Source of the DNA: a virus
DNA: 36,462 bases
Direction: 5' to 3' (one strand)
IMG/VR virus record: IMGVR_UViG_3300017963_000158
Location: 1-36,462 of that record
Within the stretch, counting starts at the first letter, position 1. Each line of letters starts with the position of its first letter. Both the position numbers and the translations under genes were made by a program. The notes under the pieces were generated by a model. It was not told the origin of the DNA and did not search any database. It saw only the letters and a list, made by a program, of their open reading frames with translations. Below are positions 1,300-35,558 of this stretch, piece by piece.

Positions 1300-2130
1300 T
1301 TAAGCATATTCTGAAACAACAACTGAGTTCGCTGATCCTGCTCCCCCTGCAATCATATAGATATCTAATGCTTCACCCAGCAAGAACTCTGCAGAAGCAT
1401 TTTTAGGTATCTTGTGACCACCCGTTGCACCAGAAACGGTAACAGTGTTCGCAGAACCTACGTAAATTGGCTGGTTGTCTAGGTTTTGCACTAGAACTCT
1501 CTTTCTTCCTCCGAGAGGTGTTCCCACTAATTCAGCTGCTGTAGCGGCAGGAGTGTAAGCACTTAATTGCCAGGCAACATCATGACTATCTCTGACCATG
1601 AGTCTTCTATAAAGGTCAGATAGTAAATCCGCTCTATCATTTGATGCTGAAAGTGCGCCAATCGCTGAAGCAGTCGTGACACCACGTTGACCAACCTTAA
1701 TTGGGTTACCAGAATCGGCATCATCGTCACCCACTGAAGATGTTAAATCAGCGGCAACCTTTAACTCTCCGTCGTCGTTGAAAACAAGCGGATGTGCGTC
1801 TCCATCAGCTGATACTGGTGATCCACCAGCGTCTTGTCTTACACCGTAGATACTAAAACCGTATCCAGCAGCAAAAGCAGCATCTGAAATTTCAAGATCA
1901 ACTAGATTAGACTCATCTCCAATACCCACATAATCCGTAGCATTGGTTAAGCTTCTAATATCAAGATCTGTAGCTGAAACTGTTACCGTGTTACCAACAT
2001 TAACGTCTAACGCTCCTGCAGTATCAGTAATAAGTGTTCCACCAGCAGAAATAAGGTAACTACCAACTCTCTGCGATCCTGAAATATCACTTGGGTCAAA
2101 TTGTAATTCGTCTAAAGAAATCCCTGACAT
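1300..2130 (-). CDS. Virion structural protein with C-terminal knob domain
   Basis: This 276-residue protein is rich in Ser, Thr, Ala, Val and Asp, with few cysteines. The last 80 residues (LGGRKRVLVQNL, then IYVG, then VTVSG, then ALDIYMIA) form a small beta-rich domain seen in many phage virion proteins. A recognisable paralogue of this domain ends the product of the 2470-2880 gene. The ribosome site is a G-run (GGGGGG) followed by AATT and ATG, the same leader style as the capsid and fibre genes, which suggests high expression. It lies in the head-proximal cluster, so decoration, head fibre or neck protein are all possible. Confidence 0.7.
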   Translation of the reverse strand: MSGISLDELQFDPSDISGSQRVGSYLISAGGTLITDTAGALDVNVGNTVTVSATDLDIRSLTNATDYVGIGDESNLVDLEISDAAFAAGYGFSIYGVRQDAGGSPVSADGDAHPLVFNDDGELKVAADLTSSVGDDDADSGNPIKVGQRGVTTASAIGALSASNDRADLLSDLYRRLMVRDSHDVAWQLSAYTPAATAAELVGTPLGGRKRVLVQNLDNQPIYVGSANTVTVSGATGGHKIPKNASAEFLLGEALDIYMIAGGAGSANSVVVSEYA

Positions 2131-2146
2131 AATTCCCCCCTCTTGG

Positions 2147-2470
2147 TTATGTCCAATACATTAATTCTATATTAACCGATGCCTGATCAGCTTGAACATA
2201 AATGTTGGGAGAGTTTACGTTGAGATTATCCAGAATTAACGCAGACCCTTTTCTAATGGTCCAATAATTCGTCCCTGATTGACTCGCTGTAAAAGCTATT
2301 TGTAAATTTGATTGTTCTTGGCATCGTAAAAAGACTTGCTTAACGTTTCCGGTTAACGACAGCGTAAATTCTGTGTTTGCTGTACCGGGTGAAGTAGTAA
2401 TTGAGTTATTAGGGGTCGTTGCCCCCGAAACAGTCTCAAACTTCGTGGTAAATTGATTAGCGTTTGCCAT
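2147..2470 (-). CDS. Small virion structural protein
   Basis: This 107-residue protein is rich in Thr, Asn, Ser and Gln with alternating beta-type hydrophobics, typical of small phage decoration or fibre proteins. Its start codon touches the stop of the upstream gene at base 2470, so the two are translationally coupled. No catalytic motif or membrane segment is present. The phage structural assignment rests on composition and on lying between virion genes. Confidence 0.6.
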   Translation of the reverse strand: MANANQFTTKFETVSGATTPNNSITTSPGTANTEFTLSLTGNVKQVFLRCQEQSNLQIAFTASQSGTNYWTIRKGSALILDNLNVNSPNIYVQADQASVNIELMYWT

Positions 2471-2880
2471 TAGCCAAGCTCCATCACTTTCAGTATGGCG
2501 CTTTTTCCACTCTCACAACGGCCATACAAAGTTACCGTTTCGGCAATATCAACATTTAGTCGTGAGCCTGGGTCTAGTTCATAACCGGATGTATTTGACC
2601 CAACAACCGTATCGGCCGTGACATCAGAGTTTCCGATATAAATAGTATCTTCATCAGATTTATTGTGTAATGTGTAAGAGTTTCGAGGACTGAGTGCAGT
2701 AATCGGAATCGCAGTTGCAGAATCAGTAATTTGAATCACAGAGTTTCTAATGGCATTTCTCACCCCACCAGGTGTGACATTACCCCCACCAATTTGGACG
2801 TTTCTTGCGACATGTCCCTGATCGTCATTAACAAACGATTGAGTGTTATCGGTTATTGGATTACCTGAACGTGCGACCAT
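2470..2880 (-). CDS. Virion structural protein, single knob domain
   Basis: This 136-residue protein has a second half (SYTLHNKSDEDTIYIGN, then VTLYGRC, then LKVMEL) that aligns by eye with the C-terminus of the 1300-2130 product: Tyr-Ile/Val-Gly, a Val-Thr strand, and a terminal Glu-Leu or Glu-Tyr. The two genes thus carry paralogous domains separated by one small gene. The upstream spacer 2881-2965 holds two hairpins. The role is probably capsid decoration or neck-associated. Confidence 0.65.
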   Translation of the reverse strand: MVARSGNPITDNTQSFVNDDQGHVARNVQIGGGNVTPGGVRNAIRNSVIQITDSATAIPITALSPRNSYTLHNKSDEDTIYIGNSDVTADTVVGSNTSGYELDPGSRLNVDIAETVTLYGRCESGKSAILKVMELG

Positions 2881-2897
2881 TCAAACCTCGTTTAAGC

Positions 2898-3349: not shown

Positions 3350-3360
3350 ATTTTACCTCT

Positions 3361-3597
3361 TTAATTTGAAACTTTTTTCTTTCTTACTTTCTTTACTGTC
3401 TTCGTTTTCTCGGCACTTTGTAAAGTCCCTTTCTCCAGCTTATCGTCTGCAATTGCCTGGATGAGATAATGGACATACCAATTGCCTCCAACTTTGTTCC
3501 ACTGTGTAATCACAATGGAATAAGACTTAGACAACTCTCCCAGTTGTTGCTCCAAAAGCGCGAGATTGTTTCCTACCAAGTGCCGAGCATTAATCAT
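3361..3597 (-). CDS. Small protein with Lys-rich tail, directly after the major capsid gene
   Basis: This 78-residue protein has a helical N-terminus, a short beta-type centre (SYSIVITQWN, then WYVHYLI) and a C-terminal run of Lys and Arg. It starts 3 bp after the capsid gene stop. A basic tail suits DNA or RNA binding or a capsid-interior role, but no family is recognised. Head-completion or virion proteins of this size are common at this place. Confidence 0.55.
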   Translation of the reverse strand: MINARHLVGNNLALLEQQLGELSKSYSIVITQWNKVGGNWYVHYLIQAIADDKLEKGTLQSAEKTKTVKKVRKKKVSN

Positions 3598-5245: not shown

Positions 5246-5767
5246 CTAGAAAAATATTCGTTTAATTTCAAGATCTATAATTTGCCTTACTTTGTCTTCA
5301 ATAATCTTAAATTCCTTCTTAGTTAGGGCAAGAAAAGGTCTTTTTTCTGATGCAAATTCCGCCACCATTCTATTGGTGAGTTCAGTATCATATCGGAACG
5401 TCTCTTTAATATTAATCTCAACCCCTGTTCCAACTCTCCGAAATCCCAATGCCTCTAGCATTTGCCCCGTGTATGTTAAGTTACTTCTTCTAACGCTTGC
5501 AAACTTGCCTCTAGGTCGATTCTTTTTTCTGAAATTAATATAAGTTTCTGATAGGTCATCAAGCTTTGTCTGTTCCGGAAATCTATTGGTTGCTCTATCA
5601 GCAGATCCCAATGTGTCGTCATCAACACCTTTTCCAGCTTTAACTCGCTTATAGATAATATCCACAGTTAGTTGACCGATTATATTAAGGTTCTTTCTCG
5701 ATGTAACCTGCTTAAAAAGCCTCTCTGTTCTCTTTCTAAGATCTAAAAGATCTTTATTAACCGGCAT
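5246..5767 (-). CDS. Head morphogenesis / tail completion protein (gp10/gpG-like)
   Basis: Three ATG codons follow one another. The third (5765-5767) has the best distance to GTAGGGG and gives 173 residues. Visible patterns are a helical N-terminus, RVKAGKGVDDD, a LSETYINFRKK stretch, LTYTGQMLEAL, and a C-terminal KRPFLALTKKEFKII. These match the general plan of HK97-gp10 or Mu-gpG-like virion morphogenesis proteins. The upstream gene has the same plan (Gly-rich, TG-ML motif), so the two look like distant paralogues. The gene overlaps it slightly at the start. The placement between portal and scaffold is less usual for this family. Confidence 0.6.
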   Translation of the reverse strand: MPVNKDLLDLRKRTERLFKQVTSRKNLNIIGQLTVDIIYKRVKAGKGVDDDTLGSADRATNRFPEQTKLDDLSETYINFRKKNRPRGKFASVRRSNLTYTGQMLEALGFRRVGTGVEINIKETFRYDTELTNRMVAEFASEKRPFLALTKKEFKIIEDKVRQIIDLEIKRIFF

Positions 5768-6338: not shown

Positions 6339-7779
6339 TGCCCGCTTCTTCCTCTTCTACAATATCAATCCCACGTGTTGCCACCTCTGTCTGTACAGCA
6401 AGAAACTCTCCTTTTTCTCTAAGAATCTCTTCATAAAGCTCATCAATAGCGGTGTCGTTATAGTCAGGATAATGCTTTTTGAGCTCTCTTTTAAGCGTCG
6501 TAAGCCCCACATCAAGCATTTGTTTAGAGTTTTCAACCTTCTCCTTTTGACTAAGGAGAATCTTAGGCTCTTGAAAGGAGATATTGACACTAAAAGCATC
6601 GGAAAAGTCTGAGTCTAATTCAGGTACGAGTTGATTAGTCTCCCTCCAATAGGGAATCATGTACTCGGAGAGTTTCGTCCATAGATCATTCTCAGCTTTA
6701 AAGAAATATGCCTGCTGATCTGCTTTGTCTTCTACTGACTCAGCATTGTCTAAAGCTTTAGAGATTCCCGAGATAAGATCCTCAACGCTTTGAGTTGTTG
6801 CAATAGTCTTTGCAGACAGGTTCTTGGTAGTAAGAAGCATAGACATGATATTAGCAATAAGTTGCAGGATAGCGACAATATCAATTTCCGGTTTGACTGT
6901 TCCAATCTCGGGCTTTTCTCCTCCCGGACCATACTGAAGTGAAATAACAGATGATGGGTTACCTGGAATATCCCCTACAGGGCCAATAGTCCACAATATA
7001 CTCCATGCCTGATATTTCACGGCAAATAAAAGGTCAGTTAAAACCACGGGAATCGCAATTGCTGCTTTGAGAAGATCGTCGTCGGGAATCGGATCAACTT
7101 CGTCAATGGATGTGGTTTGATAAATAAAGGGCAACTCTCCATACGGGTTTATTCCATCGACATTATCCATCTTAATCATAATCTCAGGAATAATTTGTCC
7201 GTGTCCGTTAATGACTTTATGTCCAATATCAGACCAGACAACAATAATCTGATTTTCTGGAATAACATCCCATTTCTTGATTAGCGCTACAATATTAGGC
7301 CTTGTTTTTCGGTAGGTGTCATGGGCATAAACCTCATAGCGATGTCTTGGATACAGTCTAAGCCCCGGCCATCCGTTTTCATCGATATACATCTCTATGA
7401 GAAATCTTTTAAAGAGCTTAAGATGGCGGTTTGCTTGTTTCATTATCTGATTAAGCTCAAGATAATGCTCATAATCATTCATTAACTCGGTATCTGTCTC
7501 AGATTCGTCCTCAACGGTTCTATTAGGCGCCTCAACATAAACACCAGCAAGTTTGTTAATGATTTTTTCAACGATATTAATGGGAACAAGACGACCAATA
7601 AGCTCATTAACCGTTTCTGGCTTATTAAATTCTTTATCAAGCGCCTCTCTTATAATCTCTTTGGTTTTTCCGTTGTACATGAGGTAGCGCTTATACTCTT
7701 CCTTGCGTGCTTCGATTTTATGGACGGCATTGATATCCTTTGCCACCATTTCTAGTACTTCAGTATTAAGTTCGATCAT
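6316..7779 (-). CDS. Portal protein
   Basis: This 487-residue protein has the SPP1-type portal style: a helical N-terminus with YKRYLMYNGKTKEI, a wing region with LRLYPRHRYEVYAHD, and NPYGELPFIYQ near the middle. Near residues 300-340 there is a hydrophobic helix, LQLIANIMSMLLT, before an active-site-like stem helix. The C-terminus is acidic and low in complexity. The length is typical. It follows the large terminase gene after 13 bp. It forms the dodecameric DNA channel at the capsid vertex. Confidence 0.85.
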   Translation of the reverse strand: MIELNTEVLEMVAKDINAVHKIEARKEEYKRYLMYNGKTKEIIREALDKEFNKPETVNELIGRLVPINIVEKIINKLAGVYVEAPNRTVEDESETDTELMNDYEHYLELNQIMKQANRHLKLFKRFLIEMYIDENGWPGLRLYPRHRYEVYAHDTYRKTRPNIVALIKKWDVIPENQIIVVWSDIGHKVINGHGQIIPEIMIKMDNVDGINPYGELPFIYQTTSIDEVDPIPDDDLLKAAIAIPVVLTDLLFAVKYQAWSILWTIGPVGDIPGNPSSVISLQYGPGGEKPEIGTVKPEIDIVAILQLIANIMSMLLTTKNLSAKTIATTQSVEDLISGISKALDNAESVEDKADQQAYFFKAENDLWTKLSEYMIPYWRETNQLVPELDSDFSDAFSVNISFQEPKILLSQKEKVENSKQMLDVGLTTLKRELKKHYPDYNDTAIDELYEEILREKGEFLAVQTEVATRGIDIVEEEEAGNGIQPQI

Positions 7780-7792: not shown

Positions 7793-9067
7793 TTATGCCC
7801 AGCTTGTGATTTTTGTTTCTGGAATCTTAACTAGTGGTTCATACCACCAAGCGAGATAACCAAGACAGTCAGAGATGTGTGTTAAGAGAGGATCTGTCTT
7901 TTGATCTAGCTTGTTATCTTTCCAGCTCACTTTTTCCAAGTCATTAATTAATTTCTTGCAACTGGGATCTATTATAATACGCCCGTCTTGCAATAGTCGA
8001 TTCACGTTATTAACTCTATCGGAAACGAATGGGTTATAGGTCTTTTCAACCCGCATTCCTGACCCTTGTAGAATAAGAAAATCCGATTGACCGGATGTTT
8101 TTCTATTTCTACCGGTTGAATCGGGAATTATTCGCCCTTGGAGATTGTTTCTTAGGATATAATCTCTCATTTTGTATGTGTCAGAGTTGCGAAGAAATGC
8201 TTCACTAAAGATATAGAGCTTATCGTCTCGTATTTGCCCAAAAACTGCCGTCATGGGATCAACGTTAAAGTCCATACCAATGAGAATCTCACCATTAAGG
8301 CGTTGCACTGGTGCGGTGTGGTCGTCTCTTCTAAATGAGTAGTAAGCAATTCCATCATCGGCATCACTAAACTCTCCTCGCAAGAATCGTGCTTGGTCTT
8401 TTTCCGACATAGATTTGAGGAGATTTATATAGTCCTCGTCTATGTTCTCAAGGTTGTCAGTGGGGTTCATAAGCAAAGATTCGTAGTTTTCTGGATTAGC
8501 TAAAGGTTCATTGTCCTCTGGTTGAAGCTTTTTAATAAACATCCAGTACGACCAATGTGTTTTGACCGGAGGATTGCAATCATAATATGCTTTTTTTGCC
8601 AGAGTATTTTTTTCAGCTAACCGCGTCTTAGCAATACCCACAGAGCTACTATTTATTTGAGAAGATTCGTTGAAGTACATAGTGGAGTATTCGTTTCCGA
8701 GGATCTTTTCTACTCTTTCCTTATCATCTAATCCACCTACCCAAATTTCAGAACCATTTGGAAGCTTAAGGAAATAGTCTGATTTGTTATAATTTTTCTC
8801 GGTTATTCCCAGATGAGGAAAGCATGTTGTGACGACCTTTGGAAGTGTATCAAGCCATATAGAGCGCTTGGCATGGTTGAATTTGAACCTAAGAATGCAG
8901 TGACGGCTTTTTACCTTAGAGGCACGTACTAATATGGCATAAACAAGAATAAAAGTTTTACCTGAACGAGACCCTCCAAAAAGCATAATATCTTTTGCTT
9001 TTGAGATGAGTAGCTTTACGGCCTCTTTTTGTTTGTCTGTTTTTTTAAAGACAACAGATACGCTCAT
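7793..9067 (-). CDS. terL: Terminase large subunit
   Basis: This 424-residue protein has a Walker A of the form GGSRSGKT (residues 31-38) and a Walker B ending YFNE (131-134) with the catalytic Glu. Its RNase H-fold nuclease residues are Asp266 (GMDFNVD), Asp316 (IPDSTG) and Asp400 (HISDCLGY). It overlaps the small terminase gene by 4 nt (ATGA). The motif style matches the Terminase_3/6-type large subunits. If it packages by headful, as many relatives do, the circular permutation seen at the window ends is explained; that step is inference. Confidence 0.92.
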   Translation of the reverse strand: MSVSVVFKKTDKQKEAVKLLISKAKDIMLFGGSRSGKTFILVYAILVRASKVKSRHCILRFKFNHAKRSIWLDTLPKVVTTCFPHLGITEKNYNKSDYFLKLPNGSEIWVGGLDDKERVEKILGNEYSTMYFNESSQINSSSVGIAKTRLAEKNTLAKKAYYDCNPPVKTHWSYWMFIKKLQPEDNEPLANPENYESLLMNPTDNLENIDEDYINLLKSMSEKDQARFLRGEFSDADDGIAYYSFRRDDHTAPVQRLNGEILIGMDFNVDPMTAVFGQIRDDKLYIFSEAFLRNSDTYKMRDYILRNNLQGRIIPDSTGRNRKTSGQSDFLILQGSGMRVEKTYNPFVSDRVNNVNRLLQDGRIIIDPSCKKLINDLEKVSWKDNKLDQKTDPLLTHISDCLGYLAWWYEPLVKIPETKITSWA

Positions 9068-10006: not shown

Positions 10007-11107
10007 TTAGATTGATTTTCCGATATATTTAAAGGTAAACGTTTTTACTTTAGACCTGGAACCCTTATTTAGTCTTCCGTATACAATCGCTTTTTTCATC
10101 TTTCTATCGACTGCAATAAGCTTCCATTTAGGGTTTTTAATTCTTGATAAATACATAGGCACCGATGAAAACTTTGCCATAATCTCATAGCCATATTTAT
10201 CAATGAGATATTCGGCCGTTTTTTCCACGAGAAGATTACCTAAACCAAAGCCTATGTAGTCCGGATGTATTACAACCCGGTTTGAGTGCATTTTAAATGT
10301 TTTATCTGTTGGTCTTTTGGGGACATAATTTGTAAATGCCCCAAAGCCGACTTGCTCATCATCCTTAAACAAACCAAAAAAATGAGATTTCCCTCTCGAT
10401 ACTGACTCACTCAGATAATGATACTTGCTAAAGTATTTCCATGTTGATTTATCGACTTCTTTAATTGTGAACTCGAGCTTTTCTGAGCGTTGCCAAACCG
10501 ACCTCCGATGTTCGAGGTACTCTTGTTTATTACAATCAATGATCCAGTCGGGTTTTAGCCATTCGATTACGTCGTAATGGCATGCGATAAGTACAATGCA
10601 CTTATCGGTCTTTCTTGCATATTTTTGAATGGAATGACTCATGACTTTTGCCACCGTCCGATCCACAACAGATGTCCACTCATCAATAACAGACACCTCA
10701 TCGTTTTCAATCATAGCAAGAACGGCCTCTGCTCTTGCTTGTTGACCGTTTGAAAGTGTCCCAGCGGGTCTAATCCAGCATGGAACAGAAGTTAGGCCTA
10801 TACCAGACAATGCCTTTGCACAGTCGTTATAGGGCATGTTTTCGGGCAATTGATTGATGACAGGTTTAGACTTATCTAATCTGCTTCTTAAACTCTCCTC
10901 ACCCCAGATTTCTCTTGCAAGGGTTGTCTTTCCTGAGCCTGAGGCGCCAACAATAAGACCAATATTAAATGGTGTAGTGACATCTGCCTTTACTTCTAAG
11001 TGATGCTTAAGTTTTTTCTCAATATCTATGTCTAGTGCATCGGCAGCTTTTTGTGTCCTAAAGTTGATGACTGGATCAGATTTGAGGTCTACGACATAAG
11101 TTTGCAT
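10007..11107 (-). CDS. ABC-type ATPase fused to GNAT acetyltransferase domain
   Basis: This 366-residue protein has an ABC ATPase in residues 40-195: Walker A GASGSGKT (54-61), signature LSNGQQ (118-123), Walker B SVIDEW (139-144) and H-loop His177. Residues 220-366 have a GNAT-like plan with YHYLSE (229-234), a VVIHPDYIG strand and the acyl-CoA loop GFGLGN (286-291). The same fusion is known as COG2401. It has no membrane segment, so it is not a transporter. It overlaps the ParB-like gene by 19 nt. The GNAT part recalls Mom-type DNA modification proteins, but that link is inference. A role in DNA modification or in tRNA or protein acetylation is possible. Confidence 0.75.
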   Translation of the reverse strand: MQTYVVDLKSDPVINFRTQKAADALDIDIEKKLKHHLEVKADVTTPFNIGLIVGASGSGKTTLAREIWGEESLRSRLDKSKPVINQLPENMPYNDCAKALSGIGLTSVPCWIRPAGTLSNGQQARAEAVLAMIENDEVSVIDEWTSVVDRTVAKVMSHSIQKYARKTDKCIVLIACHYDVIEWLKPDWIIDCNKQEYLEHRRSVWQRSEKLEFTIKEVDKSTWKYFSKYHYLSESVSRGKSHFFGLFKDDEQVGFGAFTNYVPKRPTDKTFKMHSNRVVIHPDYIGFGLGNLLVEKTAEYLIDKYGYEIMAKFSSVPMYLSRIKNPKWKLIAVDRKMKKAIVYGRLNKGSRSKVKTFTFKYIGKSI

Positions 11108-11706: not shown

Positions 11707-12531
11707 ATGAAAACCTTATTTCTCATTCTCTCATTTCTTTTCGTAAGCTCTTGCTCAGCTAATGGAGAATGGTCCGGTCATACTATGCAAAGAGAGAAGA
11801 AGGTTTGTGTGGTGGGAGATACAGGAATGGGGACAAAAGAACAGGATAAGGTAGCAGATGCCATGCACAATCATGGGTGTACGGATATCTTAATTGCTGG
11901 AGATGTTATTTATCCCAGTGGACTAATCTCCATGAATGACAAAGACTTTAAGCTGAAGTTTTTGGATCCTTATAAAACTCTCTTTAAGAAAGCGACCTTT
12001 TATCCTGCTCTAGGCAATCATGACTATTACGGCAAGCAAGAGGTGTGGTTAACCATAGGGGAGAGTTATCCTCAAATTCATTTTCCCCACTATTGGTACA
12101 AGTTTGTCATTGGCGACACGTGCTTTTTTGCGATTGACACCAATTGGTACAAGATCAAGATGTATAAATGGCTCAGATCTGAGCTTAAAAAAAACAAGGG
12201 TTGTCGAAAAAAGATTGTCTTCGGACATCACCCCTATAAGTCCTCAGGGTCTCATGGTGATGCTAATCCTGCACGCAAGCTTCTAATGCGCTACGGGTTT
12301 ATGGGAAAAGCTGATCTCTATATAGCAGGGCATGATCACCAGTTAAGTGATGAGGGGATAGTCAGAGGGACACGTCAGCTTATTTCTGGTGCAGGGGCAA
12401 AGCTTCGTCCACTTAAGAAGAATCCTGAGTGGGGAGTATCTGAATTAGGTTTTGTTTCCTTAGATCTTAAAGAAATGACTTATACGTTTATTAACTACAA
12501 GGGTGAGGTGCTTTACTCGGGCGGGTTTTAG
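11707..12531 (+). CDS. Secreted lipoprotein, purple acid phosphatase-like
   Basis: The ATG at 11707 has GGAGG six bases upstream and gives 274 residues. The N-terminus is a lipoprotein signal peptide (Lys2, hydrophobic core, lipobox Val-Ser-Ser-Cys16). Ser at +2 favours outer-membrane sorting in Gram-negatives. All five metallophosphoesterase motifs are present: GDTG (37-40), GDVIY (65-69), GNHD (103-106), GHHP (173-176) and GHDH (208-211). The GDxxY form points to purple acid phosphatase. The gene lies on the plus strand between minus-strand genes, an accessory moron arrangement. The substrate is unknown: phosphate scavenging or surface change are possible. Confidence 0.85.
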   Translation: MKTLFLILSFLFVSSCSANGEWSGHTMQREKKVCVVGDTGMGTKEQDKVADAMHNHGCTDILIAGDVIYPSGLISMNDKDFKLKFLDPYKTLFKKATFYPALGNHDYYGKQEVWLTIGESYPQIHFPHYWYKFVIGDTCFFAIDTNWYKIKMYKWLRSELKKNKGCRKKIVFGHHPYKSSGSHGDANPARKLLMRYGFMGKADLYIAGHDHQLSDEGIVRGTRQLISGAGAKLRPLKKNPEWGVSELGFVSLDLKEMTYTFINYKGEVLYSGGF

Positions 12532-12819: not shown

Positions 12820-13415
12820 TGAAATACCCTACATTCAGAAAGATGGACCTTAAAATCTTTAACCTGACACCAGGCAAACATCCTACGCCTTCTTTCAATA
12901 ATTGTTTCCACTAAAGGGGCAGTAGGAAGCTCTAGGCAATCTTTCCATTCATAAAACTTGATCAATTGACCGTCGTCGCAAATAAGAAAGTCGGAATCTG
13001 ATGTCCCAACTCCGTATCTGTACTCTTCTGGCATCAACGAGGTCATATTGAGAGAGTAAAGATAGGTCTTATACGGGGAGAGTTTAGTTCTGTAGACAAA
13101 TCCATGTGGCAAAAAGTCAGTCAGATCAAAATGATCCTTAAACTCTATTGCCCCCTTTGTCTCTTCATCAAACTCCCTCAAGGCGCAGACAGTGGGAAGC
13201 TCATTCTTATGCATTTTTCCCGTAACAAGACTAGGAAAAGCAAAGTCTGGTAAAGGAAGTTGACCCAACATAATTGGAGATAGCTCGGATATATTGTGTC
13301 GTGAGTTATGGACACTTATATCCTCTTCGATAGTGGTCATTTTTTCGCATCTAAGCATCACGTAAGTATTGCAGTCCTCTCCATAGTAAAAGGGAAGAAG
13401 AGCAATGTTATCCAT
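12816..13415 (-). CDS. Nudix hydrolase-like protein
   Basis: The preferred start is the ATG at 13413-13415, which overlaps the previous stop (ATGGATAA). It gives 199 residues; an ATG 24 nt earlier is possible. A Nudix-box-like motif runs from Gly66 through Glu72, Arg80-Glu81 and Glu84-Glu85 to Gly88. The usual box has one residue between Glu-Glu and Gly, here there are two, so the box is one residue longer than standard. Nudix enzymes cleave nucleoside diphosphates linked to another group (dNTPs, NAD, ADP-ribose, caps). The substrate cannot be inferred here. Confidence 0.65.
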   Translation of the reverse strand: MDNIALLPFYYGEDCNTYVMLRCEKMTTIEEDISVHNSRHNISELSPIMLGQLPLPDFAFPSLVTGKMHKNELPTVCALREFDEETKGAIEFKDHFDLTDFLPHGFVYRTKLSPYKTYLYSLNMTSLMPEEYRYGVGTSDSDFLICDDGQLIKFYEWKDCLELPTAPLVETIIERRRRMFAWCQVKDFKVHLSECRVFQ

Positions 13416-15339: not shown

Positions 15340-15377
15340 ACGGGGCATGACTAGCGATAGAAATGCCCCGTTTTTTT
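15340..15377 (+). terminator. Intrinsic terminator, usable on both strands
   Basis: ACGGGGCAT (15340-15348) pairs with ATGCCCCGT (15363-15371) over 9 bp with a 14-nt loop and is followed by seven T (15371-15377). It ends the 15019 transcript. The convergent minus-strand gene stops at 15376, inside the T-run. Confidence 0.85.
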
Positions 15378-19109: not shown

Positions 19110-19111
19110 TC

Positions 19112-21668: not shown

Positions 21669-21678
21669 CAAACTCTCC

Positions 21679-24698: not shown

Positions 24699-24750
24699 AT
24701 AATTCCCCCCTCAATTGTTTTTAATATTTTATCCAACTCTCCTGAGTGTG

Positions 24751-26796
24751 TCAGAGATTATAAAGATCCGTTGCCAGTATCCGTGTCTCTCTGTTTTGCT
24801 TTTGGATTTCTATTATTTTGACATCATTTGATGTGCTTCCACCAGGGATGTCATTCGTCTCAAGGATAAATTCGTCCCCAATTTCAGAATCAAAGTTAAT
24901 TCCCTTGGTTGTCAGGGTATGGAGGATGGATCTTTCGGATTTAATATTGATATGGTCTGTTATTTTAGAGACAAAACTCTCCAGTACATGCCGAAACCTT
25001 ACGGTGTTATCTATTCCGTGAAGGTATCGTGATTTGTTTGATGAGGCGGTTTGTGAGGACACCCCCACAAACTCTGAAGAATTGTAATGAGGATTGAAAG
25101 CAACAAGTTGAGTCGCAATATCCTTATAATCCACACCATAAGAGTGAGTATTTTCAACAATCTCGGTATTAGATATCGTTTCAGTGGGTGTAAAGCTTGC
25201 AAACAGCTCATAAACAAATTCAAAAGAGTCGTTTTGATAGATGTAACCCAGCGTTGACGAAAGAATCCGTTCTATCGACTTAAAGTAACTATTAAAGTCT
25301 AGCTCATCAAAAGTTGGAATAGAAAAAGCGGCATTTACCGCCAAACTTGACTTGGCAGTGGTAAAGCTTGCTGCATTAGCACTTAGGCCCGTAGCTTCAA
25401 TGATCTCTTTAAGCACATCCGCTTGATTCTGGTTTGATTCCTCTGGCTTAATCTTAAAAAAGACCCCAAAAGTTGCTGGATCTAGGGTAGGCATGGACAG
25501 AGTCGCTTCAAAGTTATTGGTAAAGGTCACTTCAATAAGCTTATGCCCTGTGGCAGTAAGGTTTGTCTCTGTGGCGGTGTAGTCTCTGCCGTATAGCGGG
25601 TAGTAATAGTTATTCTGCAGGTCTCTTATGACTAAAGATGGGCATACATTGGAATTGATTGTATCAGTCGCCACAATTGATGCGTTTTTTGTAACGTAGA
25701 CATAATGATTTGTTCGATCCACGTATAGTACTCGGGAATAGTAAGTCCCAGAGCCAGTGATGACAAAAGTATCCCCAATATGAATCTTTGGTGAGACAAC
25801 CGAAGTGGTATCCAAACGAGTGAAGTTAGCGTCAGTATTATCCACACTAGTAGGTGAGAAAGAAAAATCAGTGGTTCCATAAGTCCCCACTCTTCCACAA
25901 GCAAACTCTCTATTATTAGAAGTCGTTAAGTTTGTGGTGTAGTTTGTACACACCGCCTCATCCATTAGCTCAGGATTAAGTGCTTGAGCGTCAGGGAGGT
26001 TGGTGACTGTCTCTGGAATTGTATCGTACCTTGTCACAGAACCAAAATAATAGCGAATAGGTTGATTTTGATAGTTGGACTGAATATTGGTGAAGTTGTC
26101 ATTGGTATAATAAATAACGTCATCACCCATAGTTGCCAGAGTTGAAAGGACATCGATGTCATCCTTAATGGAAAAGATCACCGATGTTCTTCTAACACTT
26201 AGAGCTGAGATTCTTCCCCTAAAGGTCACCTTAAAGTTTTCAATCTCATCAAGAAAATGCCACACCTCAATAGATGAATTATAAAAGGAATCTTCTGGTG
26301 TGAGATATTGGTTAAACTCTCCGTTGTCATTGGTAATAGTCATATTACTTGATGAAATCGACAAGATTCCGGCAAAGATGTTCTTCACTGACTGAGTGAC
26401 TTGGGGTGAGCTTTGTATTCTCGGTAACCATTCTCTTAAATCCACCGTAGGACTTGTTGGATCCTTACCAACGACCCGGAACCGTTCAATCGTATAATAG
26501 AGGTTATAGGTTGCGACAATAGCATTTGAGCTAGAAGGAGCAGCATTTAAGTTCACCGTGAGTAGATTGGTGGTTTCGTTAAAACTAAACTCTCCCGACG
26601 AAGGTGTGCCTGAGACTTTAGTAAGCTCCGTTCCTTGTTCAAATACTGATTCCAGGTCGTATGGAAAGGTCATGGTGTAGGTAGTTCCGGACACTATGGC
26701 GAGTGCTGCATTTACATAGCGCCTTGGAACCACCTTCACCAAGATGAATTTTTGTGTTGTCTGGTCTGTCTTTTTGGTTGAATAATTATTTGCCAT
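24751..26796 (-). CDS. Tail hub / baseplate protein
   Basis: The ATG at 26794-26796 overlaps the previous stop (TGATG) and gives 681 residues. The protein is long, beta-rich, with many Asn and Thr and low Cys. It lies between distal tail proteins and the fibre, where siphoviruses encode the tail hub (gp27/gpJ-like). C-terminal patterns (VRFRHVLESFVSKITDH, then FILETNDIPGG) resemble hub proteins that end the tail tube. No lysin domain is seen. Confidence 0.65.
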   Translation of the reverse strand: MANNYSTKKTDQTTQKFILVKVVPRRYVNAALAIVSGTTYTMTFPYDLESVFEQGTELTKVSGTPSSGEFSFNETTNLLTVNLNAAPSSSNAIVATYNLYYTIERFRVVGKDPTSPTVDLREWLPRIQSSPQVTQSVKNIFAGILSISSSNMTITNDNGEFNQYLTPEDSFYNSSIEVWHFLDEIENFKVTFRGRISALSVRRTSVIFSIKDDIDVLSTLATMGDDVIYYTNDNFTNIQSNYQNQPIRYYFGSVTRYDTIPETVTNLPDAQALNPELMDEAVCTNYTTNLTTSNNREFACGRVGTYGTTDFSFSPTSVDNTDANFTRLDTTSVVSPKIHIGDTFVITGSGTYYSRVLYVDRTNHYVYVTKNASIVATDTINSNVCPSLVIRDLQNNYYYPLYGRDYTATETNLTATGHKLIEVTFTNNFEATLSMPTLDPATFGVFFKIKPEESNQNQADVLKEIIEATGLSANAASFTTAKSSLAVNAAFSIPTFDELDFNSYFKSIERILSSTLGYIYQNDSFEFVYELFASFTPTETISNTEIVENTHSYGVDYKDIATQLVAFNPHYNSSEFVGVSSQTASSNKSRYLHGIDNTVRFRHVLESFVSKITDHINIKSERSILHTLTTKGINFDSEIGDEFILETNDIPGGSTSNDVKIIEIQKQNRETRILATDLYNL

Positions 26797-27296: not shown

Positions 27297-28432
27297 TACA
27301 AGACCTCTCTAAGTTGAAGGGTCATATTAAAATATTGATGGCGCACATGGCGAAACTCTGGTTCTCGGTCGAAGATTACATACTTTGTAAAATCCCCTAA
27401 TTCATCAGAAATACATAAAGCAGGATCAAGGGAGACAAACAAAGGTGTATGAGTGCCAAAATCGTAAAACAATTGTTCCAAAGTATCCCGCTCACCCTTT
27501 GTAAGAAGCGCAATACCTGCTGAAGTAAACTCGGAGTACTTGGTTTTACGATCAAAGTAGATTTGTCCTTGTTCACTGGTGGTTCTTAGACTTGGATCCA
27601 CGATTCTTTTTCTAAAGCCGTTTTGAATATTAGTACCAGTTAATGTGGTGTAATCGCCTAGATAAATATAACTAAACTCAAACCCCTCTGGTCCACCCGT
27701 ATTAGTCTTGTCTTCAAAATAGAATCTCCAAAACCGATAACCCGTATCAGCAATGTCATCAAAGAATCTAAAAAGTCCCTGATCTTGGCGGGTCAAGGTC
27801 ACATCTAAAGGAGGACTAGTAAAGTCTGATAAGTTGTTTGCTTGAATCTTAATCGTGGCATCAACGGAGAGGGTGAATTCCTCCCCTAGAGGAGAAATCA
27901 CACCAAAGAATTCTACAGGAGCATTATATCCAAGATCCCATTGAACAAATTCATACATATGGTTGCGGGGTTCATCTGCAATCCTCTCAGTAGAAATCAC
28001 CTCATCCGTTGTCAGGACAAACCCGAGATCCGCCCAAAGAGCTTCCGTTTGTTGAGAGAATCGAAGAGTATGTCCTGAAGCGTGTGCGAACCGAAAAGAA
28101 AACTCTCCGGCCGTATTGTTATAGTCAAATGTCCAACCTGAAGAGACAGTGTTAAGCTGAGTCTGGATCTCAGTCGCCAAAGTGGTGGGGTTATATTCCC
28201 CTGCAGTAATAGTAACCGTCTTATCCGATCCATCGTTGATATACAAAAGGTCATTGGAATCAAGGGTTATAAGAAAGTATCCATCAGGTCTCCAGACTTT
28301 TGATCGAAATTTATTATTAATGTTTGAGACGGGAAAGGCGGAGAGTTGACTAGACTTCATAATCGAAGCGGTGGTTAACTCTCCTAGGTTATTATCCATG
28401 AACCGTATTCGGTTGTTTGTGGTCGTTGTCAT
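27296..28432 (-). CDS. Distal tail protein-like
   Basis: This 378-residue, beta-rich protein starts immediately at the tape measure stop (TAATG). The N-terminal part includes LDSNDLLYINDGSDKTVTIT and a YNPTTLATEIQTQLN stretch often seen in phage minor tail proteins. The C-terminal part (FDRKTKYSEF, then TLEQLFYDFGTHTPLFVSLD) resembles distal tail proteins that join tube and hub. Its position as the first gene after the tape measure supports this. Confidence 0.65.
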   Translation of the reverse strand: MTTTTNNRIRFMDNNLGELTTASIMKSSQLSAFPVSNINNKFRSKVWRPDGYFLITLDSNDLLYINDGSDKTVTITAGEYNPTTLATEIQTQLNTVSSGWTFDYNNTAGEFSFRFAHASGHTLRFSQQTEALWADLGFVLTTDEVISTERIADEPRNHMYEFVQWDLGYNAPVEFFGVISPLGEEFTLSVDATIKIQANNLSDFTSPPLDVTLTRQDQGLFRFFDDIADTGYRFWRFYFEDKTNTGGPEGFEFSYIYLGDYTTLTGTNIQNGFRKRIVDPSLRTTSEQGQIYFDRKTKYSEFTSAGIALLTKGERDTLEQLFYDFGTHTPLFVSLDPALCISDELGDFTKYVIFDREPEFRHVRHQYFNMTLQLREVL

Positions 28433-31400
28433 TAGGCGATCCTCTGATTAGTTCGAGATAGCTCAAGTAGTATATTAGCAAAGGTGCTTTCGTTAAGTTC
28501 AACACTTGCATTAACTTGTTGTCCACCTCGAAGAAGATCCGCTATTTCTGTAAGGAGTGAGATCTTTGCCGTTTCATCAGGTCCTGATTGATTGTTTTGT
28601 GAATCTAAGAAGCTTTCAAGCTTAGGAGTTAAGTCATCTCTTACAACGAACTCTCTTGAAGTTAATCGAGCAGGAAAAGTATCGTTGGGAAAACCATCAG
28701 GGACAATACCACCAGTAGCAAACCCGAAAGCATCGCCAATTCCACCGACAATTCCCCCGACTGCGCCTGTAACGCCACCAATAATTCCACCGCCTGAACC
28801 TCCTCCTAAAAAGTCACCCACGATTGGGATAGATTTGATCAATTCCTCAACAAACGATCCTGCACCCGAGATTATTTCAGAAATGAAACGTGATCCTGCA
28901 CTAATGACTGAGTCAAAAAGAACTCTCCCTGCCTGGGCAAAAATATTAGGAAGATTACTGAAGAAATTTCGGATGATGTTGAATGGCTCCAATATGAACT
29001 TAACTAATTGAGGTCCGACATTTGCGAAGATGTTAATAAGTGCTTGTGGTAATGTCTTCGCAAGTTCAAACGGCACTTGAAATGCCAAAGCTTTTGCCAG
29101 AGCGATTGCCACACGTGGTGTAGCTTTCACTAATGCAATAATTATCTCATCCGACTTCTCAGCTAATCTTTCAATTATAATAGGCGCTTGTTCTGCTAGT
29201 GCCTCTATAAAAACTGGCAAACCTGTCAGCACGTTTTCCACGATCACAGGGATGGCATCCGCAAAAGCTTTTACCTGCTCACGTATCGCATCCGGTCCTT
29301 GTGCAAAAAGATTAATTAAAGGATTAAGTGCTTGTCCAAGTCCTGGTGCAATAGCATCAAGACCTAATGTGGCAAAGTCTAAAACAACCGCTTGAGCACC
29401 TTGGGCACCACCGGCAAAGGCATTGGCAAAACCTATTCCTATAGCTGCAGTGGATGCTTGGGAGAGTTGTCGTCTTAATCCGTCTATTTCTTGTTGTTTT
29501 ATTGCTCTAAGCTCAGGACTAATCGTAAGATTGTCGTCAAGTTGCTTTTGAAGGTTTTCAATAGCTCTAGTTTGCTCAGTCTCAGATCCAAATATGTTTC
29601 TTAAAGAGTCTCTAAGGTTTGCCCCACTAAAGACCTTATCAATACTCGCTTCAACCTGATCAAACTGTCTTTGAAACTCTTGGATAAATCTGGTGTTGTC
29701 TTTAATAACTGAAGTGTTTCTTTTCTTATTAAGGGCGACCGCTTTACTATTAAAATCCTCAAGAATCTTCTCTTCTAATGCCTTAGCTTTCTTGAGTGTC
29801 TCGCCTTCTCCCTTAAGACCCCCTTCAATAAGCTTGAGGCGCTCATCACGGGTTCTTTTGAGTTGATCTAATTGAGATACACCTACATTTTGAAGCTTCT
29901 TCTCAAGGTCCTGAATGCCCTTAGTGTTAAACTTAGAAAATGCCTCATCAATCTTTTTCTTATTCTTATCTACTTGATCAGCGGCACTATTGGTTGTCTT
30001 GGCAACCGTATCTGAGAATTTAAAAAAGTTATCGTTTGCGCCATCTAGTGACTGGCTAAGTAGATTAAGTCTATCTCTTGCAACGAGGATTCTATTAACC
30101 TGTGCATCGTCAAAGATTCCAAATGGATTACTTTGAACAAAACCTGCCACCACATCCGTAAGCTTAATAAAGCCCTGAATGACTTTTCCAATAGCTCGTC
30201 CAGCTAAGGCAACAAGAACATCACCAAGACCTTTAAAGGCATCTGTGGTGTCTCCTAGTATTGGAGTTAACGCTGTGGCAAGAACTTCTGAAATCACTCC
30301 AAAGATTGTTGAAATAATCTTTGTCTCTTCTTCTATAAGCTGGAAGATTTTAAAGATTCCAAATAAAGCAGAACCTAATAGGGCAAAACCTGCAACAACC
30401 GCTCCGACAATGGTAGTCAGTGTCCCAAGGGTCACACCTAGTGGAATAAGAGCAGCATTAACCGCCACAATAGCAATCTTAAGCTTTACAAAAGCAATTG
30501 ACGCTGTGGCAATGGCAAGAACGGTTCCGGATATTGCTGCACCAAGGGCAAGAAAGCCCGCAACAAAGGCAGAAAGGACTTCTGACTCTCTAATGACATT
30601 AAGAATATTAGTCAGGACGATAATAACTTGCTTAGCTGTAGGAAGAAAGAATTGACCAATCTTGTCACCAAGAAGTGCAAAAACATCACCTAGTGTTGAA
30701 AGAGCACCGTTAAATGTTTTGGAGAGTTTAATAAGACCCTCAAAAGCAAAGCCACCTTCTTCAGATAATGAGGCAAATGCTTTTTCAAAGGTGGCAAAGT
30801 CAACAACCCCCTTGGTTACTAGATCTTTAACTGCTGTCTCAGCGACTCCTAGGGTCTTAGCAATGGCGGGACCGATAGGGATGGCACGTTCTTGGAACTG
30901 CAAGAGTCGTTCACCAGTAAGCTTACCAGCAGCAGCGACTTGTCCAAAAATAAGAGAGATTTCATCGATAGACTTACCAGAAGCGGCAGCGACGTTACCG
31001 ATTTCAGTAAGTTTTGTGTTGAGTTCATCTACTTCAAAGCCAAAGCCTAGAAGTTGTTTTCCGGCATTGGCAATTGAGGCAAATTGAAACGGTGTTCCTG
31101 CTGAGAAATCTTGAAGTTCTTTTAACGCACCATTAGCAACTTCAACATTACCCGTGAGTACTTCAAATTGGACCCCGATATCTTCAAACTTCGCTGCTTG
31201 GGCAATGGCACCACCAATTGCTGCACCAAAACCAGCAAAGGCAATACCCGCTTTAATAGCAGCGCCTTCTGCGAAGTTGAGGAAGTCTTCGTTTTCTTGA
31301 TTTAAGCGTTCATATTCTTTTGTGGCATCCGATACGGCACTTGAGAATCGTTTAGCTGCAGCAGTACCCTTAACAAACGCAGAATTGATGTTTGCTTCTA

Positions 31401-32100: not shown

Positions 32101-33633
32101 TTATAGTTCGTTAACGAACAACTCTTCTTCACCATTTGGTGTGTAAGTTGAAAGAGTCATTTGAAGTTCTAGAACTCCGTCTGTATCGACAACTTCGTAC
32201 GAAGTAATGGTTGTAAATGGGGCATAAATGTTTTTTACAGTCCCCGCGGTCCAGTTGCCTCCAGACTTTTCACCATTGTTGTACATAAATTGGACATTGG
32301 CGTTTGTTCTAAACTTGAAGAACTTATCAGCATCGTACTGAGTAAGTCGAGCTGTCACATCAAAAGTCGTTGCTCTTGCTGTAATAAGTGTTCCCTCTCG
32401 TCCTGAAGTGGCACAAAGAGAAAGAAGGTTTGACACAGTGTTGGTACCGTTCATTGTGACGTTTGAAGCGTTGAAACAAACATAGTCGTCAAAGTCTCCA
32501 AAAGTCACTTCGTTTGCTTTCCCAACGTTTGGATCAGTTGAGTCATAAGAAGGTGTTTGAGGAGCAGTGATGTCGATCACATTGTCTGCTTCATATGAAG
32601 TAGCACCTGTGTCATCAGCAGCAATATCAAATCCGAGTTTGTCACCAATTGTGTTTGCTGTGTTTGTTCCCGTATTCCAAAGAAGACTTAAAAGAGCAGA
32701 AGTACTTGAAGCAATTGTGTACTTACCCGTTGAACTTGAGTAAGTAACCTCATAACTCTCCGCTGAATCGACTGACTCCATCGCAGTAGCGAGGGCATTC
32801 GCTAAATCTACAGGATCTTTATACATTTGAGCTGTCACTTGAGCAGCAAATGTTCCATTGTCTGATGTAAAATCCAAGTAAATGTCACTTGAAGTGATCT
32901 CAATTGGGTTGAAGTAGTATTCAATTCCAGCTAAGGCATATTCACAGTTAATAAGCTGTCCGGCATCAGCTGTCATAGTCATCGTAGAAACACGAGAACC
33001 AGACATCATTTCAACGGCACCGCCATTTGATCGGTAAACCCACGTAGTAAAAGTCGGATGACCTTCTGTCGTTGGGTAGAAGAGTACAGCTTGTCCTAAA
33101 TTTACCCCAGAAGCTGGTGCTGCAGGTAAATTGAAGTTAAGTGAAAGAGTATCGGTTGAAATTGACTGAGTATTTCTTACTCTAAAGCCATTCACACCAT
33201 CTTTAATGAGAAGACCGTGACCTAAGTCTCTAAATTGTGCTCCCTCACCAGCGTCTACTACAATAGTTGCTCTTGTTGAAGCATCCCCTGCAGTTGATCC
33301 ACCTACTGTATCGTATTCAGTCCCATTAACGGTCTTCCCGCCAAGAAAACTCTCAATAAATAATCCGTGGTTACTTTCAGTCCCGGCCGTACCAGAGGCG
33401 ACCCAGTAATGCGAAATTGTTGATGTGGGAGACTCAAGACCAAGAATAGATTTTGCTTGGGCGAGTGAGTTAATAAGTCGATCGTTTGTTAATTCTTCAA
33501 ATGCAGGAGTGATTGAGAATCCATCCTGAAGTGCAATATAGTCATCAGTGGCACTTGTAGGAGAAACTGGTGTTCCTTCCGTTACTTCCTCTACAATTGC
33601 GCACACCGACGAACGGTTGTTCAATGCTGTCAT
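32101..33633 (-). CDS. Major tail tube protein
   Basis: This 510-residue protein has a start pattern common in tail tube proteins (IVEEVTEGTPVSPTSATDD, then LQDGFSITPAFEEL). Long Ser, Thr and Asp-rich beta regions follow, with at least one added domain that makes it longer than typical tubes of about 150-250 residues. It is followed by the chaperone and tape measure genes, as expected. The ribosome site is a run of eight G (C-run at 33636-33643 on the plus strand). Confidence 0.75.
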   Translation of the reverse strand: MTALNNRSSVCAIVEEVTEGTPVSPTSATDDYIALQDGFSITPAFEELTNDRLINSLAQAKSILGLESPTSTISHYWVASGTAGTESNHGLFIESFLGGKTVNGTEYDTVGGSTAGDASTRATIVVDAGEGAQFRDLGHGLLIKDGVNGFRVRNTQSISTDTLSLNFNLPAAPASGVNLGQAVLFYPTTEGHPTFTTWVYRSNGGAVEMMSGSRVSTMTMTADAGQLINCEYALAGIEYYFNPIEITSSDIYLDFTSDNGTFAAQVTAQMYKDPVDLANALATAMESVDSAESYEVTYSSSTGKYTIASSTSALLSLLWNTGTNTANTIGDKLGFDIAADDTGATSYEADNVIDITAPQTPSYDSTDPNVGKANEVTFGDFDDYVCFNASNVTMNGTNTVSNLLSLCATSGREGTLITARATTFDVTARLTQYDADKFFKFRTNANVQFMYNNGEKSGGNWTAGTVKNIYAPFTTITSYEVVDTDGVLELQMTLSTYTPNGEEELFVNEL

Positions 33634-33635
33634 GT

Positions 33636-33643: not shown

Positions 33644-33664
33644 CGAGGTATAAAAATGTCTTAA

Positions 33665-34138
33665 CTAAAAATCTTCAAAATATTCAACGTTGTAAATAGA
33701 TTGTATAACTAAATAGTTTTTCATGTCATCAAATACGTCTTCTATCCCATTATCAGTCTCAAAGAACATATGAGCTTTACCAGAAAGCAACGTTGGCGTT
33801 TGCTCAAAGTTTGCCAGTAAAACATAATGATCTTCTAAAAGGCGCTTGTGAGCAGTGTCCCGTATATCGATATCACGCTCTGTGCCTCGTGCCACAATCG
33901 TGTTGACAAAAGTAATAGGACGCCTAATTGAAAAACCGCAACTAGAAAGATTCCTATTAGTATTGATCGCTTCACCAAAATACCACCCGTAACCCCGGTT
34001 TAGTGCCAGAGACTCATTTGCCACAATATCTTTAGGTCGAACTAATTTCTTAAAGGTATTTGCTGGAAAGTTGGGTGTCGTAAAAAGAGCATCAATTCTT
34101 GTGTTTAGCTCATCGTAAATATCACTAATAACACTCAT
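33665..34138 (-). CDS. Tail terminator / head-tail joining protein candidate
   Basis: This 157-residue protein has a helical N-terminus (DIYDELNTRIDAL) and a beta-type middle with RRPITFVNTIVARG. Its size and place between the adaptor and tail tube genes fit a tail terminator (lambda gpU-like) or neck protein. It starts 2 bp after the upstream stop. The family is not certain. Confidence 0.6.
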   Translation of the reverse strand: MSVISDIYDELNTRIDALFTTPNFPANTFKKLVRPKDIVANESLALNRGYGWYFGEAINTNRNLSSCGFSIRRPITFVNTIVARGTERDIDIRDTAHKRLLEDHYVLLANFEQTPTLLSGKAHMFFETDNGIEDVFDDMKNYLVIQSIYNVEYFEDF

Positions 34139-34140
34139 GA

Positions 34141-34989
34141 TTACCTCTTTATAGATTTCACAGAGCTTGATAACTCTCCCTGAGAGACAAAAGCATTTCC
34201 ATCCTTGTCTAGGGTAAATCTTTCAATATCAAGCGCCTCTTCATAAAGAACTCTGAGCTCTTGGCGTCTTTTCATATAACTAGGACCAAGGTTTTGATAG
34301 ATAAGATCAAGTGTTCGATATGTTGCGGGCATAACAACGTCATCAAAGCGGAGAATCTGTCCCCGGTTCATTACGAGACCTCTTCTTTTAAGATCCGTCA
34401 TAAGCATTTTAGAGGCGGTTATAATTTGATCAATCCAATCTGTCTTAGATCCACTTGAGTCAAATGACGTAAGAAACTCATTAATCTCAATATCGATATC
34501 GTCCAGGATAGAATCATTAGTGAAAGTATAAGTAATTTCCTTAATCTCAGTCCCCGCATCTAGACCACTTGGAAAAGTCGCTCGGTACCAATAGGAGTTA
34601 TAGATTCTTAGAGAGTTTAACTCATCTGGAGAGTTTGAATCCTCTGTGTCATTAACCGGTCTCCAGCTGTAATCAATATATGGCGACCACTGAATAATTC
34701 CCGATCTGCCAAGAACGGCCCCTGATACTTTTGTTGCATCCAGTATATCAACTGCAGATCTCCAATTTGTTCCATCCCAGTATTCAATGGTGATGTCCCC
34801 CCCAGTAGCATTGGCCGTACTACCCATGTGGAAATACATGTTGTTAACCGGAAAATATTGAGCAAAGTATAAAGTATCAGCGGCCGTGATGGCAGGAATA
34901 AGGGTGACCCCCTCCTCTTGATTGTCTAATGACAAATCAGTGAATGATCCACCCGTCTCTTTAAAAACTCTAAAATATTCATAAAGCAT
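34141..34989 (-). CDS. Head-tail adaptor-like protein with N-terminal beta domain
   Basis: This 282-residue protein has residues 1-150 as a beta domain with IEYWDGTNWRSAVDILDATK and RSGIIQWSPY, a pattern seen in virion-associated binding domains. Residues 165-280 are helical and acidic (TDWIDQIITASKMLMTDLKR, then a DDVVMPATYRTLDLIYQNLG stretch, then FTLDKDGNA). This part recalls the head-tail connector and adaptor family. The gene sits between the papain-like gene and the terminator gene. The two-part plan suggests an adaptor with an exposed extra domain. Confidence 0.6.
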   Translation of the reverse strand: MLYEYFRVFKETGGSFTDLSLDNQEEGVTLIPAITAADTLYFAQYFPVNNMYFHMGSTANATGGDITIEYWDGTNWRSAVDILDATKVSGAVLGRSGIIQWSPYIDYSWRPVNDTEDSNSPDELNSLRIYNSYWYRATFPSGLDAGTEIKEITYTFTNDSILDDIDIEINEFLTSFDSSGSKTDWIDQIITASKMLMTDLKRRGLVMNRGQILRFDDVVMPATYRTLDLIYQNLGPSYMKRRQELRVLYEEALDIERFTLDKDGNAFVSQGELSSSVKSIKR

Positions 34990-34991
34990 AA

Positions 34992-35558
34992 TTATCTACT
35001 TTCGAGGATATGCTCAAACTGAGATGCCTCGTAAAAATCCATAGGTGTTACCGTCTCCATGCCAAGAGTATGACCGGGTTGGTAACTATATTCATTGCTT
35101 ACTTGTTTTAAAGAATAATGAATTAGCTCTGAACAGTAAAATGCATTGATAGAATTCTCAAAATAATAGTCATAAGGAGTCCCTATAAAGCTCCTTGCAA
35201 CTTTAGATGCATCGCTCCTATCGCTCTCACTCACTTCTTTTGCTCTTAATATGCATATTTTGTCTTTAGAAAAGAGAAACTTAGGAAGAGATTTTCTAAT
35301 AACGCCCTCACCTACAGCTTCTACGACATATTCTCTTCCATAGATATCTTGGTAATACATTGCTGAGTGGGTGTATTTGCCTGAAATCAAAATATTACTC
35401 GGCTCATAATTACGATATGACAGTAAGATATCGCCCTGCTGAAGAACTCTCCTGGCATCAAAATAAAAAGAATCTCCTATCTTTCTCTTAAGGGAGAGTT
35501 TACCGAGGTGGTAGTTTATCGGATAAGCGAGCTTAAGAATAAGTCTTCTAAGGTTCAT
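34992..35558 (-). CDS. Permuted papain-like peptidase / amidase (YiiX-type)
   Basis: This 188-residue protein has residues GDILLSYRNYEPSNIL followed by THSAMYYQ (His64), EAVGEG (Glu80) and FIGTPYDYYF before YCSELIHY (Cys142). This is the circularly permuted NlpC/P60 or YiiX order, with His before Cys. It overlaps the upstream gene by 4 nt (ATGA). It lies among structural genes, so it may be a virion-carried cell wall enzyme or a maturation protease. There is no signal peptide. Confidence 0.7.
   Translation of the reverse strand: MNLRRLILKLAYPINYHLGKLSLKRKIGDSFYFDARRVLQQGDILLSYRNYEPSNILISGKYTHSAMYYQDIYGREYVVEAVGEGVIRKSLPKFLFSKDKICILRAKEVSESDRSDASKVARSFIGTPYDYYFENSINAFYCSELIHYSLKQVSNEYSYQPGHTLGMETVTPMDFYEASQFEHILESR

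Follow-up and report, generated by a model that had tools for sequence, protein, structure and literature searches.

A dispersed exact octamer in a phage genome, its variants in diverged relatives and a possible Chi-like role

Why would a phage carry one exact octamer about once per kilobase on both strands of its genome? The question is raised by IMG/VR virus record IMGVR_UViG_3300017963_000158, a single phage record of 36,462 bp that was analysed at its whole length (the window). A sequence-only reading had reported 37 copies of the word (23 and 14 in its two orientations) at about 30-fold enrichment. Exact matching revealed 38 copies of GGAGAGTT, 15 on the plus strand and 23 on the minus strand, the latter being read on the plus strand as AACTCTCC; the enrichment stood and the exact count was corrected. 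By analogy with known systems, we consider that GGAGAGTT is probably a Chi-like word of the host's end-resecting helicase-nuclease, of RecBCD or AddAB type (probability about 0.6).

Excess and exactness of the octamer

All copies considered here are exact matches to GGAGAGTT. They extend from 1763 to 35500, the same extent as reported earlier, at a density of 1.04 per kb, close to the earlier estimate of one per kilobase. Plus-strand copies are located at 2208..2215, 6667..6674, 12060..12067, 13077..13084, 18204..18211, 18445..18452, 19041..19048, 20667..20674, 22415..22422, 24083..24090, 28340..28347, 29461..29468, 30721..30728, 34628..34635 and 35493..35500. Minus-strand copies are located at 1763..1770, 3533..3540, 5432..5439, 6404..6411, 7133..7140, 8370..8377, 10891..10898, 14220..14227, 17530..17537, 19064..19071, 21671..21678, 23190..23197, 23408..23415, 24735..24742, 24975..24982, 26315..26322, 26588..26595, 28101..28108, 28377..28384, 28921..28928, 32754..32761, 34172..34179 and 35445..35452. 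Two of the 38 copies, at 21671..21678 and 24735..24742, are intergenic, in agreement with the two reported earlier. An exact 123-bp direct repeat is present at both ends of the window; it contains no GGAGAGTT, and therefore no copy was counted twice.

Under an order-3 Markov model, 1.53 copies were expected, giving an enrichment of ~25-fold (corrected log10 P = -33.8); GGAGAGTT was the most enriched of the 6- to 9-mers tested. Synonymous codon shuffling (500 runs) gave a mean of 2.3 and a maximum of 8 copies, compared with 36 observed coding copies. Both checks, which the sequence-only reading had proposed, thus left the word far above expectation. The backwards reading of GGAGAGTT did not occur in the window. 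Flanking positions were near random, with the exception of T at position 9 in 20 of 38 copies, and the spacing was compatible with a random distribution (mean 912 bp, coefficient of variation 0.78, P 0.075). The order-5 model is the one result that favours an origin from composition, codon usage or repeats, raising the expectation to 14.9. This rise occurred because the model already includes the 6-mers of the word, and GGAGAGTT still ranked first of 18,401 8-mers. The order-3 and synonymous nulls, the missing backwards word, the near-random flanks and the non-homologous positions in relatives (see below) refute such an origin, to which we assign a negligible probability. The octamer is a real, strong and unusual genome-wide signal.

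As claimed earlier, protein coding does not explain the word. Copies within genes are found in every frame of either strand (13/4/6 in the sense and 2/6/5 in the antisense orientation). GGAGAGTT encodes 13 of the 14 Gly-Glu-Phe/Leu tripeptides in the window, and such tripeptides are ~2 times as frequent as expected (14 vs 6.6), indicating that selection for the octamer reaches the phage proteins. Each of the 24 one-mismatch neighbours occurred only 0-6 times. GGAGAGTT is thus an all-or-none word: exact, short, non-palindromic and present on both strands.

Core and dialects in relatives

A count in related phages had been suggested in the earlier reading. Relatives found through the large terminase showed a modest excess at three loci: L029 had 6 copies of the core GGAGAGT (0.8 expected), L050 had 3 copies of GGAGAGTT (0.17 expected) and L054 had 5 (0.8 expected); a few further terminase relatives had smaller excesses. 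The whole record of L054, G032, which carries both the related terminase and a tail protein of the family described below (35%), had 10 copies vs 2.0 expected, divided 7/3 between the strands, and one backwards word. Most of the 80 loci found through the ABC-GNAT gene lacked GGAGAGTT. A scan of viral contigs for two nearby copies of the word gave at least 120 matches, and whole records were counted for 49 of 120 and for L019. Among the matches counted, L268 was densest (5 copies in 9.9 kb); G428 had 7 in 16.8 kb, mostly clustered, and G461 had 5 in 14.4 kb. A scan for three copies found none, and a portal-protein scan found no relatives.

The virion genes of L268 have 25-42% amino-acid identity to those of the window. 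Because L268 had been selected by the word, further relatives were sought by protein instead. A tail-protein profile built from the window and L268 detected 33 loci including L268; a second protein detected 6 loci, including 4 on new contigs. An alignment of 30 rows was made from the window, L268 and 28 of the 32 new tail-protein loci, omitting L392 (the same phage as L393; 17 copies) and L377, L389 and L395 (0 copies each).

The core GGAGAGT was in excess at P < 1e-3 in 6 of the 30 rows: the window (39 vs 4.5 expected), G492/L393 (32 vs 5.7), G497/L398 (14 vs 1.1), L268 (12 vs 1.2; not independent of L398, with which it shares a 2.7-kb overlap at 98%), G477/L378 (5 vs 0.14) and G486/L387 (8 vs 1.8). 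L400, L407 and L382 showed weaker excess (P 0.002-0.04), and the remaining 21 rows were at background. Among contigs found with the second protein, L408 (5.1 kb; 70% identical over that protein) had 4 core copies vs 0.19 expected; L409, L410 and L412 had 0-1 in the stretches compared. The core is therefore enriched in several relatives that share virion genes, and most of the relatives compared lack the word.

In nucleotide comparisons, none of the carriers G492, G486, G477 and L268 showed similarity to the window. In aligned genes, sites coincided with those of the window in 0 of 19 cases for G492, 0 of 12 for G486, 0 of 2 for G477 and 1 of 6 for G497. Flanking bases also varied, although some of these counts are small: T followed the core in 38 of 39 copies in the window and 5 of 5 in G477, T preceded it in 8 of 8 copies in G486 and 17 of 32 in G492, and L268 and G497 had no clear flanking preference. 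The word thus exists in the dialects GGAGAGTT, TGGAGAGT and GGAGAGT, with GGAGAGTC as a further candidate form. Judged from these alignments, the word persists across several diverged relatives and its positions hardly persist at all.

Carriers clustered on the tail-protein tree: 3 changes were counted, shuffling gave 5.6, and 3 of 500 shuffles had as few. Support for the branches that separate the carriers is weak, however, and two of the clustered carriers are near-copies of each other. Such clustering is what vertical inheritance would give if a phage-encoded protein for replication, packaging or genome marking, inherited with the carrier lineage, read the word. The window encodes two helix-turn-helix (HTH) proteins (15376-15849 and 17635-18018) and a ParB_N protein that could serve as readers, and the terminase and virion genes common to carriers would allow a packaging role. 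However, searches of G492, G486 and G032 by blastp (E up to 1e-3) gave no match to any early window gene, a result to be read knowing that contigs G492 and G486 may be incomplete and that blastp can miss distant homologues. What these phages have in common with the window is the virion genes, a distantly related terminase that non-carriers also have (22% in G492), a C92-type peptidase and the gene at 20398-20967, whose product has 23-24% identity to those of carriers and no assigned function. A binding protein would usually tolerate mismatches, and no mismatched form was in excess. The near-copies in the clustered pair also reduce the weight of the tree. We regard a phage-encoded reader as rather unlikely, and less likely than a host-encoded one.

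The ParB-like product had been proposed earlier as a protein that might bind the word. G495 has both ParB and ABC-GNAT genes and only 1 copy of the core; G027, described in the next section, has both genes and a different word; the 31.5-kb contig of G492 lacks both genes and has 32 core copies. The presence of ParB and ABC-GNAT genes thus does not track the word, which speaks against its being a site for the ParB-like product. This pattern, with the genes in a non-carrier and absent from a carrier, also counts against a phage-encoded reader in general. The ParB_N protein matches profiles named methyltransferase, by our reading over its ParB part. These matches bear on another proposal, in which a host defence or modification system would recognise phage DNA as self by the word, either modifying the site or sparing DNA that carries it. 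Type III, IIG and BREX systems typically recognise exact, non-palindromic words, which would suit this proposal; phages usually lose, rather than gain, sites of restriction systems. Apart from the ParB_N matches, no methyltransferase was reported among the window proteins scanned, and sites at about one per kb would shield only a small part of the DNA. A self-mark is accordingly improbable.

A separate observation concerns the gene pair itself. In the window (10007-11625), in Pmp13 and in Leptospira phage LE4, the ParB_N gene overlaps a gene for an ABC-ATPase/GNAT fusion, and the two lie immediately upstream of the terminase genes. Since the phages otherwise differ, this arrangement suggests a conserved pair with a link to packaging. 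In 6 of 33 terminase relatives examined (L009, L012, L017, L020, L031 and L038), 6 bases that include an in-frame stop split the Walker A motif, in the pattern GGS-[stop S/F]-RSGKT; the window gene is intact. TAA, TAG and TGA all occur as the stop, and the interruption is therefore not one reassigned codon.

Words of other phages and the Chi yardstick

Another phage, G027 (IMGVR_UViG_3300032397_000022, 48,222 bp), carries the dispersed octamer GTGCGGTT in 28 copies (14/14 on the two strands) vs 0.95 expected. Its ABC-GNAT and ParB proteins were its only matches to the window at E up to 1e-3. GTGCGGTT contains GTGCGGT, which we take to be the core of the Haemophilus uptake word, mostly without the AA that precedes it in that word. 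Within the tail-protein family, G500 had 20 copies of TTGGTGA vs 3.4 expected, and other members had weaker candidates. Dispersed words on both strands were rare: among 229 loci of at least 8 kb (some overlapping, the window included), they were clear, at the threshold applied, only in the window and in L335, a part of G027. The signal, first seen in a single phage, thus extends to several relatives, in which it takes the form of dialects, and G027 is a second example with another word.

Several other high-scoring words were rejected as dispersed signals. Those of L010, L028, L031 and L041 were repeats with fixed flanks, almost all on one strand, and the copies in L276 were clustered. GGAGACTGA of L346 (contig IMGVR_UViG_3300028380_000017) was set aside on account of its position, mostly before start codons; it occurs 17 times in 15.9 kb, mostly directly 5′ of ATG, and is an unusually uniform ribosome-binding word. 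In L327 and L329, GTTAAG/TGTTAAG was dispersed and enriched, with 19 copies of TGTTAAG in 10 kb of L329.

The same statistic was applied to the first 50 kb of P1, and Escherichia coli Chi, GCTGGTGG, was the top 8-mer (27 vs 3.95 expected; strands 15/12). The excerpted text of PMC3784561 likewise reports over-representation of Chi in the P1 genus. Chi in P1 and GGAGAGTT in the window are alike in being exact 8-mers, present on both strands and top-ranked. They differ in sequence, in enrichment (6.8-fold for Chi and 25-fold for GGAGAGTT) and in density (0.54 and 1.04 per kb); in addition, variation of the word within a family was seen for GGAGAGTT and, as far as the excerpts of PMC3784561 extend, not for Chi of coliphages. 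In the portions of PMC5959072 and PMC8022716 used here, GCTGGCGC of Pseudomonas syringae, GAAGCGG of Staphylococcus aureus and GCGCGTG of Lactococcus lactis are Chi or Chi-like words of 5-8 nt that, like GGAGAGTT, are non-palindromic and lineage-specific. A literature search for GGAGAGTT gave no phage or Chi paper among the matches listed; searches on Chi in phages pointed to PMC3784561 as the relevant precedent.

A Chi-like reading and the search for a host

Among the roles listed in the sequence-only reading, a Chi-like signal of the host nuclease fits best, because the word is exact, short, non-palindromic and present on both strands, is kept in related phages though hardly in place, and has the signature of Chi in P1. 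Its exactness, with no excess of one-mismatch forms, is what all-or-none recognition would give, rather than graded binding. A host-encoded reader accounts for the exactness, both orientations, the lost positions, the dialects and the different words of different phages. We infer that the reader is encoded by the host, that it is an enzyme of RecBCD or AddAB type and that its encounter with the word is protective. According to this model, selection would maintain about one GGAGAGTT per kb on both strands, and an enzyme entering a broken or unprotected end of phage DNA would soon meet a correctly oriented copy. Degradation would stop there, and the 3′ single strand would be passed to recombination. 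Phage DNA would in this way be protected, and recombination or concatemer formation promoted.

According to PMC3784561, lambdoid phages that have no RecBCD inhibitor carry Chi in excess, and Chi protects their ends and brings in host recombination; lambdoid phages with inhibitors avoid Chi. The genes of the window are in line with the former class. The product of 16964..17635 (plus strand) is a possible Mgm101/Rad52-like single-stranded-DNA-annealing protein, i.e., a phage recombination function; it matched PHROG 11717 (unknown function, E 6e-20) and, by tblastn, a protein annotated mgM101-like (43% over 90 amino acids), and had no Pfam match above cut-off. A RusA-like Holliday-junction resolvase is encoded at 19106..19627 on the plus strand (Pfam RusA 37.6 bits, cut-off 22.8). 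Scans of early window proteins reported no family of Gam or Abc2 type, though inhibitors of other kinds may be present. With its possible annealing protein, RusA and this negative result, the phage is similar to the class in PMC3784561 that is recombinase-positive and inhibitor-negative and carries Chi in excess.

Several findings weigh against a Chi-like role. GGAGAGTT was absent from most of the 79 loci found through the large terminase, some of which have similar codon usage, and was never top-ranked in them. T5-like phages are named among the strongest for Chi in the excerpts of PMC3784561; the first 50 kb of T5 contained 2 copies vs 1.39 expected, i.e., no excess. The enrichment and density of GGAGAGTT are far above both the values for P1 and the lambdoid medians given in the available part of that paper. 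The 15/23 strand split provides no extra support. GGAGAGTT was identical to none of the Chi sequences compared, as given in portions of PMC8022716 and PMC5959072; equality with a known Chi is not strictly defining, since Chi differs between lineages.

The search for a host counts on the same side. A total of 625 distinct genomes was searched by pattern, comprising 26 terminase-bearing genomes, 274 of Fangia's class, 120 of the phylum of the Treponema genome G019, 106 of the phylum of G010 and 106 of the class of G020. None approached the density of GGAGAGTT in the phage; the highest value was ~0.16 per kb (G796), where the backwards word occurred at 0.12 per kb. The count in candidate hosts that the earlier reading had proposed thus gave no host. 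Several genomes had ~10 times or more words than backwards words, with up to ~400 copies of GGAGAGTT in some. Six of these high-ratio genomes were sampled for composition at 75-200 kb each (G615 and G014 were among those left out). Order-3 ratios were 1.2-1.7 in G607, G629, G692 and G673, 3.6 in G316 and ~3.7 in G026; at order 5, the last two fell to 1.0 and 1.8, respectively. The high copy numbers are explained at least partly by composition. A modest excess in a host could be missed by this test, because Chi is only ~2.3-fold over-represented in E. coli itself, by the figure in the excerpted PMC3784561.

Searches of genomes with the tail-protein profile gave only weak partial matches, in 2 genomes out of 369 from Fangia's class, 3 out of 294 from the phylum of G017 and 5 out of 398 from Fangia's phylum (the Fangia class and phylum sets overlap). 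Cultured phages had no match to the portal, capsid or tail protein or to the product of 27296-28432, and plasmids had no match to the tail protein.

The genome counts also bear on a possible role of the word in DNA uptake by a naturally competent host, whose genome would be expected to hold hundreds to thousands of copies. Uptake words of Neisseriaceae and Pasteurellaceae have a density of about one per kb, and in this density and in its dialects GGAGAGTT resembles them. The uptake words of Neisseriaceae likewise combine high density with lineage-specific variants; GGAGAGTT, in contrast, is found in a phage with no known competent host. A phage would have no obvious gain from uptake as free DNA, and such a density was reached in 0 of the 625 genomes. 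This explanation is very improbable. The uptake, packaging and modification roles listed in the sequence-only reading gained no support, though not all of them fell away.

We therefore return to a word that works like Chi as the best reading. A bolder view is that this phage lineage has an octamer code of its own, GGAGAGT with its dialects, by which a phage-encoded or undescribed recogniser would tell phage DNA apart during infection, with selection shaping the proteins and positions turning over almost completely; we hold it as tentative and, on balance, unlikely.

Very few bacteria have a known Chi word; the abstract of PMC8022716 names five species and then related motifs in 85. If the Chi-like reading is true, phage genomes can report the recombination word of never-cultured hosts, since a phage may be enriched in the word far more strongly than its bacterium. 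The word would also provide a marker for host identification and a direct test of how strongly escape from a nuclease shapes phage proteins. A phage family would then be a record of the evolution of such a word, in its core and its dialects.

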